From Candidatus Nomurabacteria bacterium GW2011_GWA1_36_15 (GTDB taxonomy: Bacteria > Patescibacteriota > Minisyncoccia > Phycocordibacterales > UBA9973): 41,474 bases of DNA. The notes below the pieces were generated by a model. The model did not search any database. It was given only the letters and a program-made list of their open reading frames with translations, and was not told the DNA's origin. A program made the translations under genes and the position numbers. The DNA is taken from NCBI GenBank assembly GCA_000991415.1, contig LBRM01000008.1, positions 1 to 41,474 on the forward strand, in the 5' to 3' direction. Of the stretch, positions 12,035 to 35,314 are shown piece by piece. The stretch's first letter is position 1. Every line of letters begins with the position of its first letter.

Positions 12035-12128
12035 GAATTTATGAAAATCAAAAATTTTTGAGCCTTCGCCCTCGGAACCATAAGGACAGAGGACCCACGA
12101 CTCTTAAAATTTTTATTTTCATAAATTC
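12035..12128 (+). repeat. Palindromic core element, copy 1 (5' leader of yqeY)
   Basis: Arms 12035-12058 and 12106-12128 pair over 23 bp with one bulged C (12049). The 47-nt interior contains GCCTTCGCCCTC and GACAGAGGACCCACGAC. It is identical at 36 of 47 positions to the interior of copy 2 (18477-18523), while the arms of the two copies are unrelated. The right arm ends 6 nt before the yqeY ATG. An ATG in the left arm (12041) opens only a 6-codon frame. Confidence 0.85.
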
Positions 12129-17711: not shown

Positions 17712-19514
17712 ATGAAAGAGGAAATCCAAAAATTTTTTAAGGGGGAAGTGGAAGATGATGAAAAAACTCTTGCAAAATATTCGCGAGATGCGAGTATTTT
17801 TGAAGTAAAACCTAAACTTGTACTCTTTCCCAGAGATTCTGAAGACGTGAAAAATCTGGTGAAATGGGTTTCTGAAAATAAAGATAAGTATGCGGATCCG
17901 GAATTAAATAAAGATTGGAAAAATCTTTCTATTACTGCCAGGTGCGCAGGTACCGATATGTCAGGTGGAGCAATAGGGGAATCTTTGATATTGGATTTTA
18001 CTAGGCATATGAATAAATTAATAGGTTGGAATCAAATTCTAAAAAATTCTTCAGAATTTGATTCCATTACAGTGCAACCGGGCATGTTTTACCGAGATTT
18101 TGAAAAAATGACGCTGGAGAAAGGATCGGTTTTACCTTGTTATACCGCCTCGAAAAGTTTGAATGCCATGGGAGGGATGTTTGGTAATAATTCTGCTGGA
18201 GAGCGAACTCTTAAATATGGGAAAACCGAAGATTATATTTTAGAAACCAAAATGGTTTTTTCGGATGGCAACGAATACGTAATTAGACCGCTAAGCCAGA
18301 ATGAATTAACAAAAAAAATTACACAAACAAATCTTGAAGGTATAATCTATAAAGATATTTATGATTTAATAAATAAAAATAAAGAAGAAATAAAAGATGC
18401 AAAACCAAAAGTTCATAAAAATTCTGCTGGTTATTATATTTGGAATGTTATAAGTAGCCCGCCTGAAAAAGATTTTGGCGCCTTCGCCCTCAGAGATATT
18501 AAGACAGGGGACCCACGACGCATAAAATCTTTTTCAGGCGGGCTTTTCTTTGATCTAAATAAATTGCTTGTCGGTTCACAGGGGACTTTAGGTATTGCTA
18601 CGGAAATTACTTTCAAACTTGTTCCCAATCCAAAATATTCCAAACTGGTAGTTGTTTTTATGAATGATTTAGCTTCCCTGGGTCATCTGGTAGATGAAAT
18701 TTTACGATTTGACCCAGAAACCCTAGAAACGTATGATGACAAAACTATAAAACTAGCAGTCAGATTTTTCCCAGATTTTTTTAAAAACAAAGGTTTTATC
18801 GGCATTATTAAATTTATGTGGAATTTTTTACCGGAGTTAAAAATGATGATTACTGGGGGTTTCCCAAAATTGATCCTTCTAGCGGAATTCGCCGGAGAAG
18901 ATGAAACTCTAATAAATAAGCGATGCATTCTTCTTAAAGAAAAAATTGAGGGTTTTAAACTGGAAGTTCACATTACTAAGTCAAAAGAAGAAGCGGAAAA
19001 GTATTGGGATATCAGAAGAAAAAGTTTTTCTCTTTTACGGAAACATATTTCAGGTCTTCATACCGCTCCCTTTATAGATGATATTATAGTTCGCCCAGAA
19101 TTTTTACCAAAATTTTTTCCAGAGTTAAATGGAATTTTAAAACAATATAATTTGACCTACACCATAGCAGGACATGCGGGGGACGGCAATTTTCACATTA
19201 TTCCTCTCATGGATTTTTCACGTTCCGATACTGCAAAAATAATAGTAGAACTTTCAGAAAAAGTTTATAATCTTGTCATAAAATATCACGGTTCGATTAC
19301 AGCTGAACATAATGACGGCCTTATTCGCACCCCTTATCTGCAAAAAATGTATGGAGAAAAAATAATTAATCTTTTTGAACAAATTAAAAAAATTTTCGAT
19401 CCGAAGAATATTTTCAATTTGGGTAAAAAAGTTGTTTCACCTGATGGAGTGGGCACCAAAGAATACGTAGTATCACACATTGCCTTAGAACACAATGTTC
19501 ATCATGAAATTTAA
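17712..19514 (+). CDS. FAD-linked oxidase (GlcD/D-lactate dehydrogenase-like) with palindromic insert
   Basis: Flavoenzyme of the FAD-binding type 4 (PCMH) family, oxidising a 2-hydroxy acid or similar. The 600 aa include the FAD-binding segment ARCAGTDMSGGAIGESLILD, GMFGNNSAGERTLKYG, LLVGSQGTLGIATEITF, and the C-terminal AGHAGDGNFHIIPLMD with ITAEHNDGLIRTPYLQKMYG. No C-terminal Fe-S domain is present. Residues about 249-278 (SPPEKDFGAFALRDIKTG and beyond) interrupt the usual NSAGYYIWNV ... FDLNKLLVGSQGTLGI sequence and are encoded by a palindromic element (18456-18544); the frame stays open through it. The substrate is unknown. The 81-nt gap upstream shows no clear promoter. Confidence 0.85.
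   Translation: MKEEIQKFFKGEVEDDEKTLAKYSRDASIFEVKPKLVLFPRDSEDVKNLVKWVSENKDKYADPELNKDWKNLSITARCAGTDMSGGAIGESLILDFTRHMNKLIGWNQILKNSSEFDSITVQPGMFYRDFEKMTLEKGSVLPCYTASKSLNAMGGMFGNNSAGERTLKYGKTEDYILETKMVFSDGNEYVIRPLSQNELTKKITQTNLEGIIYKDIYDLINKNKEEIKDAKPKVHKNSAGYYIWNVISSPPEKDFGAFALRDIKTGDPRRIKSFSGGLFFDLNKLLVGSQGTLGIATEITFKLVPNPKYSKLVVVFMNDLASLGHLVDEILRFDPETLETYDDKTIKLAVRFFPDFFKNKGFIGIIKFMWNFLPELKMMITGGFPKLILLAEFAGEDETLINKRCILLKEKIEGFKLEVHITKSKEEAEKYWDIRRKSFSLLRKHISGLHTAPFIDDIIVRPEFLPKFFPELNGILKQYNLTYTIAGHAGDGNFHIIPLMDFSRSDTAKIIVELSEKVYNLVIKYHGSITAEHNDGLIRTPYLQKMYGEKIINLFEQIKKIFDPKNIFNLGKKVVSPDGVGTKEYVVSHIALEHNVHHEI
18456..18544 (+). repeat. Palindromic core element, copy 2 (in frame in the FAD oxidase)
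   Basis: A perfect 21-bp inverted repeat (18456-18476 and 18524-18544; arm begins AGCCCGCCTG) encloses a 47-nt core with GCCTTCGCCCTC and GACAGGGGACCCACGAC. The core is identical at 36 of 47 positions to copy 1, but the arms differ completely. It is translated in frame as an extra peptide of about 30 residues. The GC-rich ends contrast with the host gene. Confidence 0.9.
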
Positions 19515-24982: not shown

Positions 24983-25216
<234 letters not shown>

Positions 25217-30030: not shown

Positions 30031-30076
30031 AAGTTTATAAAGTAAAATGCAGGAAACTTGATAACTTTATAAACTT
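30031..30076. repeat. Inverted repeat between atpD and atpC
   Basis: AAGTTTATAAAGT (30031-30043) and its exact complement (30064-30076), loop 20 nt. It lies in the 90-nt gap before atpC and is built from the same TTTATAA/ACTTTATG words as the gaps before atpG and atpD. It lacks a T tract, so it is more likely an mRNA processing or stability element than a terminator. Confidence 0.65.
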
Positions 30077-31516: not shown

Positions 31517-33505
31517 CTACAATAGATTCTCTGGATCCACGGACACTTCAAAAGAAGGAGGGAGAGAAGAAAGTAAATTTTTTAAATTTTGATCCACTGA
31601 AGAACCAACAGAGAGCTCTGGTAAAGACCATTTTTTTGTTTCTATTTTTATCAGGGCATTTGTCACATACTGATTTTTATTTTTAGGAACGAATCCACTA
31701 AAAATTTCAGGATTATATTCTTTTAGGAGTTCTTTTAACGTTTGTCTGGCCTTGATTGATTCTGTTTTATCGCCCAGAAAAGTAATTTTAATAAAACGTT
31801 TAAAAGGTGGATAATTTAAATTTTTTCTGTCTTCTAGCTCTTCCCGTATAAAATGGAGTAAATTTTCTGATTTAACAGCCAGAAGGGCAGGGTCGTTTTT
31901 ATTTTTTGTTTGGATGATAAGTTTTTTTTCTGTTTTAGAAAGTATAGAAAGCAAAAGTTGAATTATTTTTTCACTCATTTTGAAATTTGGTATACTCCAG
32001 AGAGAATCAAAAGAAGCAACTATTGATAAATCAACTTTTGCTTTTAGATAAAAAAAGGCCATTTCTGTGCCCACTAGTATTGAACCGGAATTTTTCTCAA
32101 ACTCTTTTGTAATTTTTTCTGCCTCTTTATCTGTTTTTACTGATTCTCTATTTAATTTAAAAATCTTAATTTTGGGGAATTTATTTTTTATTTCTGCTAA
32201 AACTGTATCTGTGCCAATACCCAAAGGCATTAAATTCCAACCTCCGCAGTTCGCACATTTAATCTCCGGCTCTTTTTCTGTATTACATTTATTGCAAACG
32301 AACATTCTTTTTTTGTTATCACGAGAAAGATACAATACTACCGGAGCCAAACATTTTTCACAATTTATCGTTTCATTACAGTCTTTACATATGGTGTGTG
32401 TGGCCAGACCTTTTCTTAATGAAAAGATAAAAATATTTTTTTTGTTTTTTAAACTATGTTGTATTTCCTCGATGCTTTTCTCAGAGAATATTTTAAAAGA
32501 ATTTTTAGATGAGTTCTGCGCCTCTTCTTCCTTATGGGGATTGGGATTTACTATATTTATCATCGCTTCATCAAAATTAGTCCTGAAAGACAAAGGATAT
32601 ACTTCACTTAAACCGTCTATTTCTTTTCTAGCTATAGTTTCATAACGCAATAAAGTGTCAGCCAATATGAATTTTACATTAATTTTTGAGGCATAAACTT
32701 CCGCAAAAATTCTCAAATCAAAATGAGGTCTCGGAAACATCTTGTAAACGTCTGAATTTTCATGTTCTACTATTATTGCTCCTAAATCTGTGCGGGGGAT
32801 AGACAAATATTGGGCGGTTCCCAATATTAATACCCCATGTGCAGAATTAACTATTTGTTCATATTTTTCAATGATTTTTTTAGGTTTTAATCCTCCGTGC
32901 ATAGAAAAAGTGAAGTTTTCTATACCTTTTGATAATGCTTGCTGAAAAATTTCTATGTCATATTCTGTTGGCAATACTATAAAAACAGATTTTTTTAAAG
33001 CGAAATATCCGCGAATTAAAGTTTTATAAAAAGAAATACGATCTTCCAGTTGAGCCTGTAGAAGCAATTTTTCAGTTTTGATGTTTTCAGAAGCATTAGT
33101 TAATTCCTTTTTATCTTTTTTTTCACTGAAAGTATTTTTATTCTTCTCGGAAAATTTCACTATTTCATCGTATTTTTCTCGGAAGATGGCAGGAATGAAA
33201 GATGCGACTCCGATATTTTTTGGGGAAACAAAATAAGAACTCAATTCTAAGGCAGATTCTAAAAATTCATTTCTAAAAATAGAGTGTTCTTTTATTTCAA
33301 CTATTTTTTTTAATTGGAAGGGCATATTTTTTATACCCGATTTAGTATTCGTTACATCTTGGCAAGAAATGACCAAGCCTAGAATTTTTTTATTACGTAA
33401 GAAAATGCTTACGATACTTCCATTTTTTACATCTTTGGCAGTGAAATAGGTCAATTCCGTTCTGAAGGATCCTTTATCTAACGGTATTACAGTTACAATT
33501 TTCAT
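31517..33505 (-). CDS. priA: PriA-like primosomal protein N', helicase motifs lost
   Basis: PriA restarts stalled replication forks. The 662 aa keep the PriA plan: an N-terminal DNA-binding domain, a helicase-like region, paired zinc-binding CxxC motifs (CKDCNETINCEKC; CNKCNTEKEPEIKCANCGG) and the C-terminal domain (YPPFKRFIKITFLGD). But the P-loop, normally GxTGSGKT, reads LLLQAQLEDRISFYKTL (about 147-163). The DEEH box reads IIVEHENSDVYK. Motif III (GSATPS) is ILADTLLRYE, and the AGRAGR Arg motif is LLSILSKTEK. So ATP binding and hydrolysis are unlikely; a scaffold role is inferred. The start ATG lies 6 nt after an extended -10, divergent from mreB. Confidence 0.85.
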   Translation of the reverse strand: MKIVTVIPLDKGSFRTELTYFTAKDVKNGSIVSIFLRNKKILGLVISCQDVTNTKSGIKNMPFQLKKIVEIKEHSIFRNEFLESALELSSYFVSPKNIGVASFIPAIFREKYDEIVKFSEKNKNTFSEKKDKKELTNASENIKTEKLLLQAQLEDRISFYKTLIRGYFALKKSVFIVLPTEYDIEIFQQALSKGIENFTFSMHGGLKPKKIIEKYEQIVNSAHGVLILGTAQYLSIPRTDLGAIIVEHENSDVYKMFPRPHFDLRIFAEVYASKINVKFILADTLLRYETIARKEIDGLSEVYPLSFRTNFDEAMINIVNPNPHKEEEAQNSSKNSFKIFSEKSIEEIQHSLKNKKNIFIFSLRKGLATHTICKDCNETINCEKCLAPVVLYLSRDNKKRMFVCNKCNTEKEPEIKCANCGGWNLMPLGIGTDTVLAEIKNKFPKIKIFKLNRESVKTDKEAEKITKEFEKNSGSILVGTEMAFFYLKAKVDLSIVASFDSLWSIPNFKMSEKIIQLLLSILSKTEKKLIIQTKNKNDPALLAVKSENLLHFIREELEDRKNLNYPPFKRFIKITFLGDKTESIKARQTLKELLKEYNPEIFSGFVPKNKNQYVTNALIKIETKKWSLPELSVGSSVDQNLKNLLSSLPPSFEVSVDPENLL

Positions 33506-33542: not shown

Positions 33543-34556
33543 ATGGGATTTTTTTCAAGAAAATTGGGCATAGATTTGGGAACGGCCAACACCTTGGTAT
33601 TTCTGCCCGGCAGAGGAATAGTTCTAAACGAGCCTTCAGTAGTGGCGGTTTCCGAGCAAGATAGTAAAATTTTGGCCATAGGTTTTGAGGCGAAAGATAT
33701 GATTGGAAAAACACCGGATTCTATCATCACTTATTGTCCGATGAAAGACGGAGTGATCGCGGATTATCGCGTGACCGAAGCTATGCTTCGTTATTTTATT
33801 AATAAAGCGTTGGGAAGATTTAATCTCTTCAAACCTGATGTTATGGTTTCCGTGCCAGCAGGCGTTACTTCTACAGAACGCAGAGCTGTGGTAGAAGCGG
33901 CTATACGCGCAGGCGCTAAAAATGCTTATGTGGTAAAAGAGCCAATCTTGGCTGCCATAGGCGCTGGTATTCCAATTTATGAATCAAAAGGATATATGAT
34001 AGTTGATATCGGCGGAGGCACAACAGATGTGGCTGTTATCTCATTAGGTGGTATTGTTTCTTCCACTTCAGTAAAATGTGCCGGCAATAAAATCGATCAA
34101 GCTATTGCAGATTATATTAAAAAAACTTTTAATTTGGCGATCGGAGACAAAACAGCAGAAGAAGTAAAAATAAAGATTGGTGCGGCTGTTCCTCTGGAAG
34201 AAGAACTCAGAGTTACTATTAAAGGGCGGGATTTTATTCAAGGATTGCCCCGATCTGCTCAAGTTGGAACCAATGAAATAGTGAAAGCCATAGATGGAGA
34301 ATTAAAACAAATAATCAAAGCCATCAAAGATGTTTTGCAGGAAACTCCGCCGGAACTTGCTTCTGACATAATGGATTATGGCATTATTATGACAGGCGGT
34401 TCATCCCAATTGCGTAATTTTACAGATCTGGTTTACAGAAAAACTGGGGTAAAAGCAACCTTAGCCGAGGATTCTATTTTTTGTGTGGTAAAAGGCACCG
34501 GTATCGCTCTTGAACACCTGGATGTCTATAAAAAAACAGTTCTAAGCAAAAAATAA
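33543..34556 (+). CDS. mreB: Rod shape-determining protein MreB
   Basis: Actin-like filament protein guiding lateral wall synthesis. The 337 aa show GIDLGTANTLVFLPGRGIVL (phosphate 1), VSVPAGVTSTERRAVVEA, the phosphate-2 DIGGGTTDVAVISLGG, and the adenosine motif GIIMTGGSSQLRNF. Full length. Its stop overlaps the holB ATG by 1 nt. No mreC or mreD follows, which is unusual for rod-shaped bacteria but cannot be judged from one window. Confidence 0.97.
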   Translation: MGFFSRKLGIDLGTANTLVFLPGRGIVLNEPSVVAVSEQDSKILAIGFEAKDMIGKTPDSIITYCPMKDGVIADYRVTEAMLRYFINKALGRFNLFKPDVMVSVPAGVTSTERRAVVEAAIRAGAKNAYVVKEPILAAIGAGIPIYESKGYMIVDIGGGTTDVAVISLGGIVSSTSVKCAGNKIDQAIADYIKKTFNLAIGDKTAEEVKIKIGAAVPLEEELRVTIKGRDFIQGLPRSAQVGTNEIVKAIDGELKQIIKAIKDVLQETPPELASDIMDYGIIMTGGSSQLRNFTDLVYRKTGVKATLAEDSIFCVVKGTGIALEHLDVYKKTVLSKK

Positions 34557-35314
34557 TGGAAATTTTAGATAATCTGGATAAAAATAATTTGCATCACGCA
34601 TATTTGATAGAAGGAACTGAAGAGGAAATTGTGCCTGAAATTTTTAAGTTCATGGAAATTTTAGGAATAGAAACTTCTGCTAATCCGGACTTTTATCATA
34701 TATCTGTAGATTCCTTTAAAATTGAAGATGCTCGCAATTTAAAATCCGTGGAACACGAGAAAAGTTTTTCAACTGGCAAAAAGATATTCCTAATTTCTGC
34801 CAATAATTTTTTACTTGAAGCGCAAAATACCTTGCTTAAAATATTTGAAGAACCGATAGAAAATACGCATTTTTTTATAATAATACCTAATACAGATACT
34901 CTTTTGAAAACTCTTGTTTCTAGATTTTATTTAATCAAAACAAAAACAAAATTGGGGGATGAATTAAAAGAAGCAGAAAAATTTATGGCTCTGCCTCTAA
35001 AAAATAGAATTGATTTTATTAAAGAATTATTGGTTGAACCGGAAAAAGATGCTGGAATTGTCTTATTAGATTCTACTAGATCTAAAGCTTTAAAATTTTT
35101 AAATGCACTCGAAACTATTTCACAAAGTAAATTTCTAAAAAATTCTTCTGGCTTGACCCTTCCCGGAGTACCGGGCGGGACCCACACCATTCAGAATTCT
35201 TTAGAAATTTACTTTAAACATATTTTTAAAGTTCGGGAATTTTTGAATCAACCTGGTTCATCAGTGAAAAACTTAATGGAATCCTTAGCTTTAATTACAC
35301 CTAATTTAAAATAG
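34556..35314 (+). CDS. holB: DNA polymerase III delta' subunit-like (HolB)
   Basis: Clamp-loader subunit. The 252 aa show HHAYLIEGTEEEIVPE at the start (no intact P-loop, as in other delta' subunits), KIFLISANNFLLEAQNTLLK, IFEEPIENTHFFIIIPN, and LLKTLVSRFYLIK (the SRC-like Arg). The zinc module is absent. A diverged copy of the palindromic core element (35129-35210) encodes SSGLTLPGVPGGTHTIQNSL in the C-terminal part. It starts at the mreB stop. Confidence 0.85.
   Translation: MEILDNLDKNNLHHAYLIEGTEEEIVPEIFKFMEILGIETSANPDFYHISVDSFKIEDARNLKSVEHEKSFSTGKKIFLISANNFLLEAQNTLLKIFEEPIENTHFFIIIPNTDTLLKTLVSRFYLIKTKTKLGDELKEAEKFMALPLKNRIDFIKELLVEPEKDAGIVLLDSTRSKALKFLNALETISQSKFLKNSSGLTLPGVPGGTHTIQNSLEIYFKHIFKVREFLNQPGSSVKNLMESLALITPNLK
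35129..35210 (+). repeat. Palindromic core element, diverged copy 3 (in holB)
   Basis: Arms of 18 nt (35129-35146 and 35193-35210; left arm AAATTTCTAAAAAATTCT) match at 17 of 18 positions. The 46-nt interior has CCCTTCCCGGAG and CGGGCGGGACCCACACC; CCTTC and GGGACCCAC occupy the same places as in copies 1 and 2, and the loop length is the same within 1 nt. The remaining core differs, so membership is likely but not certain. Confidence 0.65.

Follow-up and report, generated by a model that had tools for sequence, protein, structure and literature searches.

A palindromic repeat in protein-coding and intergenic DNA of one Nomurabacteria genus: likeness to Rickettsia palindromic elements and a probable role for template switching in arm pairing

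To our knowledge, palindromic elements inserted in frame in protein genes are known chiefly from Rickettsia. The Rickettsia palindromic elements (RPEs; Ogata et al. 2000, 2002) are described in a review (PMC10969869) as repeats of about 150 bp in several families that occur in non-coding DNA as well as in frame in protein genes unrelated to one another, encode a conserved peptide and are confined to one bacterial lineage. The element described here shares these traits, but it comes from an unrelated phylum, its conserved unit is only about 66 nt long, its outer arms are unique to each copy yet self-complementary, and its core is reversed at two sites. A second body of work concerns template switching, which is reported both to generate hairpins and to preserve them and has been proposed for RNA stems (PMC8794818), and which in yeast coding genes homogenises the arms of imperfect inverted repeats and inverts the spacers between them (PMC8604942). 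Multi-base paired changes that match the arms to each other, in coding DNA as well, and inversion of the spacer are common to those cases and ours; there, however, the repeats are scattered chance ones, whereas here they are tied to an element repeated across a genus. Perfect inverted repeats also occur in translated genes of Nematomorpha mitochondria (PMC6649704), but both arms of those encode conserved protein regions, whereas ours belong to an element that has been added to the gene and whose core is conserved.

The window (the whole 41,474-nt stretch analysed) contains a 600-residue FAD-linked oxidase gene (17712-19514, plus strand) with FAD_binding_4 and FAD-oxidase_C domains. The original prediction held that this gene reads without a stop through a perfect 21-bp hairpin at 18456-18544, and both points are correct: 17712-19514 is a single open frame throughout, and the left arm (18456-18476, plus strand) and the right arm (18524-18544, plus strand) are complementary at 21 of 21 positions around a 47-nt loop (18477-18523). 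Folded as RNA, the region has an energy of -43.9 kcal/mol, against -23.1 +/- 3.2 for shuffled sequences (z -6.45). Eight hairpins with a stem score of at least 13 are found in the 41-kb window; three shuffles gave 1, 0 and 0. Only the inner part of the left arm matches other copies of the element, the outer part being specific to this one. The conserved unit of element A (18468-18532, plus strand; defined from 18 copies in the own genome and from alignment A2) consists of an inner stem, AAAGATTTT/AAAATCTTT, and a core, GCGCCTTCGCCCTC...GACAGGGGACCCACGACG (18478-18520, plus strand), read as GAFALRDIKTGDPRR.

Is the hairpin an insertion in the oxidase? The interval between the YIWNV and FDLNK blocks is 33 residues long in the window oxidase and 28-34 in orthologues with core A or B, versus 5-15 where orthologues lack an element of this kind. 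The predicted "about 30 extra residues" is thus a fair figure (18-28 extra relative to element-free orthologues), and since orthologues have a far shorter loop, whether they come from the same genus or from another, this is an in-frame insertion. The peptide is lacking from orthologues in other genera and from solved homologues, so that the outcome named beforehand as contrary to an insertion, the same peptide at this position in distant bacteria, was not seen. A second site in the oxidase, after MNKL, shows the same length behaviour, and the two sites hold A, B, other hairpins or nothing, varying by genome. In the window the second site is occupied by a coreless hairpin (18027-18066, plus strand; 14-bp arms, 12-nt loop aaaaaattcttc), where the L024 and L031 orthologues have core B in similar arms; L037 has a bare palindrome where L031 and L024 have core B. 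Unrelated hairpin-coding inserts (e.g. SPSPLQGEGRGEV, CCTCCCCTGCGAAGGGGAGG) lie at sites 1 and 2 in L050, L028, L027 and L035, from which it appears that the turns at these sites tolerate many elements. A structure model of the oxidase (8 sequences) had a mean pLDDT of 54.9, too poor for placing the loop. In aspartyl-tRNA synthetase (AspRS), comparison with solved structures puts the insertion between aligned blocks in the OB-fold region, with 37 residues versus about 8 at that place in the Thermus thermophilus enzyme.

A search with the hairpin region located 18 copies of core A in the window's own genome (E < 1e-7; 617,508 bases in 22 contigs), and a model covering both core A and a related core B located 21. 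The collected loci comprise 134 A and 19 B unique copies; these come from metagenome assemblies with ORF-based gene calls, and many are orthologous and hence not independent. Within the window there are four related hairpins: the A copy at 18456, a second A copy at 12035-12128 (plus strand) between divergent genes for an RNase_T/ExoX-like exonuclease and YqeY, a B copy at 35124-35215 (plus strand) that lies in frame (LKNSSGLTLPGVPGGTHTIQNSL) in the DNA polymerase III delta' gene (34556-35314), and the coreless hairpin at 18027. Other strong hairpins in the window, at 25178-25216, 30031-30076, 1505-1586 and 31948-32044, have neither core; one of this set lies in the coding region 31517-33505. 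The original prediction stands in part: the in-frame palindromic insertion and RPE-like behaviour are borne out, but the number of copies, the second core family, the intergenic copies and the dissimilarity of the arms from copy to copy formed no part of it.

How widely is the element distributed? Within the window's genus, 22 of 47 other genomes contain core A and 7 of 24 contain core B; in other genera of the order, A is absent from all 32 genomes examined and B from all 16. When named genomes were scanned for the exact pattern, 62 stretches had the core, nearly all labelled Candidatus Nomurabacteria, and from this distribution we take the window's host to be a Nomurabacteria-like bacterium. 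It is also found in records titled Burkholderiales and Methylococcaceae (L068, L104 and L113, JAMPXW; L106, CAJAHC), probably through mislabelling or contamination. An A+B sequence model, run on a broad sample of the order that included one other member of the genus, had no match outside the own genome. RNAalifold found no pairs when A and B copies were aligned together, and model R1 therefore scores sequence alone. IMG/VR had no exact match to the core, and a viral origin was rejected on that ground. Ordinary length variation was likewise rejected because unrelated genes contain the same core. A literature search, incomplete in its coverage, found no paper that ties such elements to the Nomurabacteria group.

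All 53 of the 53 sense-strand coding copies use one reading frame; coding status was set by long open frames, which makes their openness partly circular, but the use of one frame out of six is not. The core is usually read as KNSPAFALGDIGQGTHGSLNSL, with the conserved peptide AFALGD.GQGTH. The window copy and those in the CCA gene have one base more in mid-core, after which they read RTGDPRR or similar with the frame still open. Coding copies have GGCGCC or CCCGCC at the place where TGAGCC puts a stop in that frame in the intergenic type. At least ten unrelated genes have in-frame insertions; judged by our reading of the sequences, except for the window genes (Pfam) and AspRS (Pfam domains and solved structures), they would encode the FAD oxidase, MnmA, UvrC, LigA, RsmH, a CCA/HD nucleotidyltransferase, PheT, LeuRS, DNA polymerase III delta' and AspRS. 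The many host genes, the single frame and the stop-free coding copies with their conserved peptide support the analogy with RPEs, in that the element appears to work like one; the likeness is of behaviour, and no kinship is claimed. Translational bypass of the byp type was set aside, the open frame being kept by coding copies. The L080 LeuRS and the N-terminus of the L053 MnmA contain other in-frame repeats (DPVRERSPQGDRSTASGRAFSN in tandem and QSSFDYAQDRNTPLKPHTSSLRGKR). In two cases the orientation of the core differs at about the same site: at oxidase site 2 the L032 core is reversed relative to its sense-core orthologues, and in RsmH the cores of L059 and L111 are opposite.

What the copies have in common is the core and an inner stem of about 8 bp, the outer arms being copy-specific. 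MITEs would have constant terminal inverted repeats, and none were found among the copies. The arms nonetheless pair within each copy: the median stem score is 15 with a copy's own right arm versus 7 with that of another copy, and a score of at least 14 is reached by 64% of own-arm pairings versus 1.2% of swapped ones. In an alignment of 85 copies, 21 of the 24 outer-helix pairs show changes on both sides, and the cells with such changes number 462, versus 182 +/- 10 after shuffling and no more than 304 after sliding. For instance, orthologous copies in the CCA gene differ yet pair (GCCTGCTCTGAC/GTCAGAGCAGGC and ACCTTCCCCGAC/GTCGGGGAAGGT). Many orthologous copies also carry uncompensated single changes. 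The flanking DNA of the orthologues compared is only about 75-80% identical. The core (identity about 0.81-1.0) is for the most part better conserved than the flanks (about 0.6-0.87), which implies either constraint at the sequence level or renewal, and for which arm copying alone is insufficient.

What keeps the arms paired? If the stem were under selection in the sense transcript, G.U mismatches should be tolerated and A.C ones should not. Among 2243 outer-stem pairs the mismatches were G.T 35, A.C 55 and other 113 (position-wise pair counts mix registers and were used for mismatch types only), so that G.U is not preferred over A.C and a process at the DNA level is favoured. Nor does this wobble test support the original suggestion that the hairpin stalls ribosomes or is cut as RNA. 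We consider that the element, which is not known to code for a product of its own, is probably an RPE-like palindromic repeat of one Nomurabacteria genus whose arms are kept paired by template switching. The conserved unit (about 66 nt), made up of the short inner stem and the core, would have come to occupy many places. Within housekeeping proteins it would sit in tolerant turns, presumably without harm, and be translated, always in one frame, to add about 22 residues; 3' of genes it resembles a terminator hairpin. The outer arms are no fixed part of the element: they differ between copies and change in concert within a copy. The cause, on this account, would be that the inner inverted repeat triggers template switching in DNA replication, copying one arm onto the other and occasionally flipping the core. 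Since both signatures of template switching are present, homogenised arms and reversed cores, we judge it the likeliest cause of the pairing, even though independent insertion in the opposite direction may have produced the reversed cores. Against this account, the spacer, at about 45-60 nt, is long for classical quasipalindrome correction, and many orthologous copies have the uncompensated changes noted above. The conservation of the core needs another cause, whether renewal (by gene conversion or new insertion) or some function. No enzyme was found that would mobilise the element.

A different possibility is that the stem is selected on the transcript, as a terminator or structured 3'-end RNA, and that the coding copies are a by-product. 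Most copies outside coding genes are intergenic, often directly 3' of a stop codon (59 of 90 non-coding A copies in the collected loci begin at most 110 nt after a same-strand ORF stop), and a T-run follows the right arm in 44 of 93 non-coding copies. In these respects they resemble intrinsic terminators, and the strong conservation of the core nucleotides is also what a functional RNA might show. Coding copies, however, cannot serve as terminators and are also well paired, where termination would be harmful; the copy at 12035 has divergent genes on either side and must therefore have some role besides termination, if it terminates at all; and G.U mismatches are not in excess of A.C. Searched against Rfam, the element gave nothing at gathering thresholds and no more than weak hits to microRNA, snoRNA and tp2 families at relaxed ones, which also led us to reject a known RNA family. 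Taken together, we regard an RNA function as the origin of the stem as unlikely.

Alternatively, the core could be a small mobile DNA that inserts at the centre of existing palindromes such as terminator hairpins, the arms then belonging to the host site. The bare palindromes at 18027-18066 and in L037, at places where L031 and L024 have core B, would be empty sites of this kind, and intergenic copies do resemble terminators with an insert in the loop. But these bare palindromes retain the inner arm of the element (AAAAAATTCTTC or AAGAATTCTT), which is what a loss of the core would leave behind, and most element-free orthologues have no comparable palindrome at oxidase site 2. Core B is flanked by a direct repeat, AATTCTTC, which might be a target-site duplication, but this belongs to the inner arm and there is no close empty site. 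Long palindromes would moreover have to pre-exist at many coding sites, and we think this explanation quite improbable. Movement of a REP-like element as a single-stranded hairpin by RAYT (Y1) transposases is very hard to credit. The element is, like REPs, a small palindrome with many intergenic copies, RAYT-like Y1 genes occur in 38 of 50 genomes of the genus (five in the own genome), and the excess of A.C over G.T equals wobble on the other DNA strand. However, the RAYT genes here carry other palindromes, with none common to A or B: three of the five own-genome genes lie amid short palindromes of their own, and none of the five has an A or B copy nearby. In genome G022, moreover, there are 10 A copies but nothing that matches Y1. 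The five genes (L214-L218) are on contigs C3, C15, C11, C2 and C5. Their palindromes include AATGTCAAAG-gcggg-CTTTGACATT, present on both sides, and ACTTGGGAGC-cga-GCTCCCAAGT, present three times; another RAYT gene adjoins a 25-bp palindrome with a 1-nt loop.

The element is an independent case of in-frame palindromic insertion, in a phylum of minimal genomes and in genes for translation and DNA repair. Its copy-specific yet paired arms offer a natural data set on whether compensatory changes arise through selection on RNA or through a DNA mutation mechanism, and they carry a warning: coding DNA, too, can give rise to covariation, which by itself is often treated as proving an RNA structure. 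It is conceivable, if somewhat doubtful, that the element seeds a mutational engine in which the short inner stem makes replication switch strands. Such an engine would repeatedly rewrite 8-15 bp of flank on both sides in concert, and dozens of loops in essential proteins across the genus would have been diversified by template switching and not by point mutation.

Two further observations concern palindromes beyond the A and B families. Around position 713 of L192 a nested hairpin (cctgcctaccgacaggcagg) splits core A, apparently another palindromic element within it. A further hairpin family, with a common loop of about 45 nt (tcaggtcctcggttctc...ggccagaccattc), is represented at 3196-3276 of L054 and 2821-2912 of L110.
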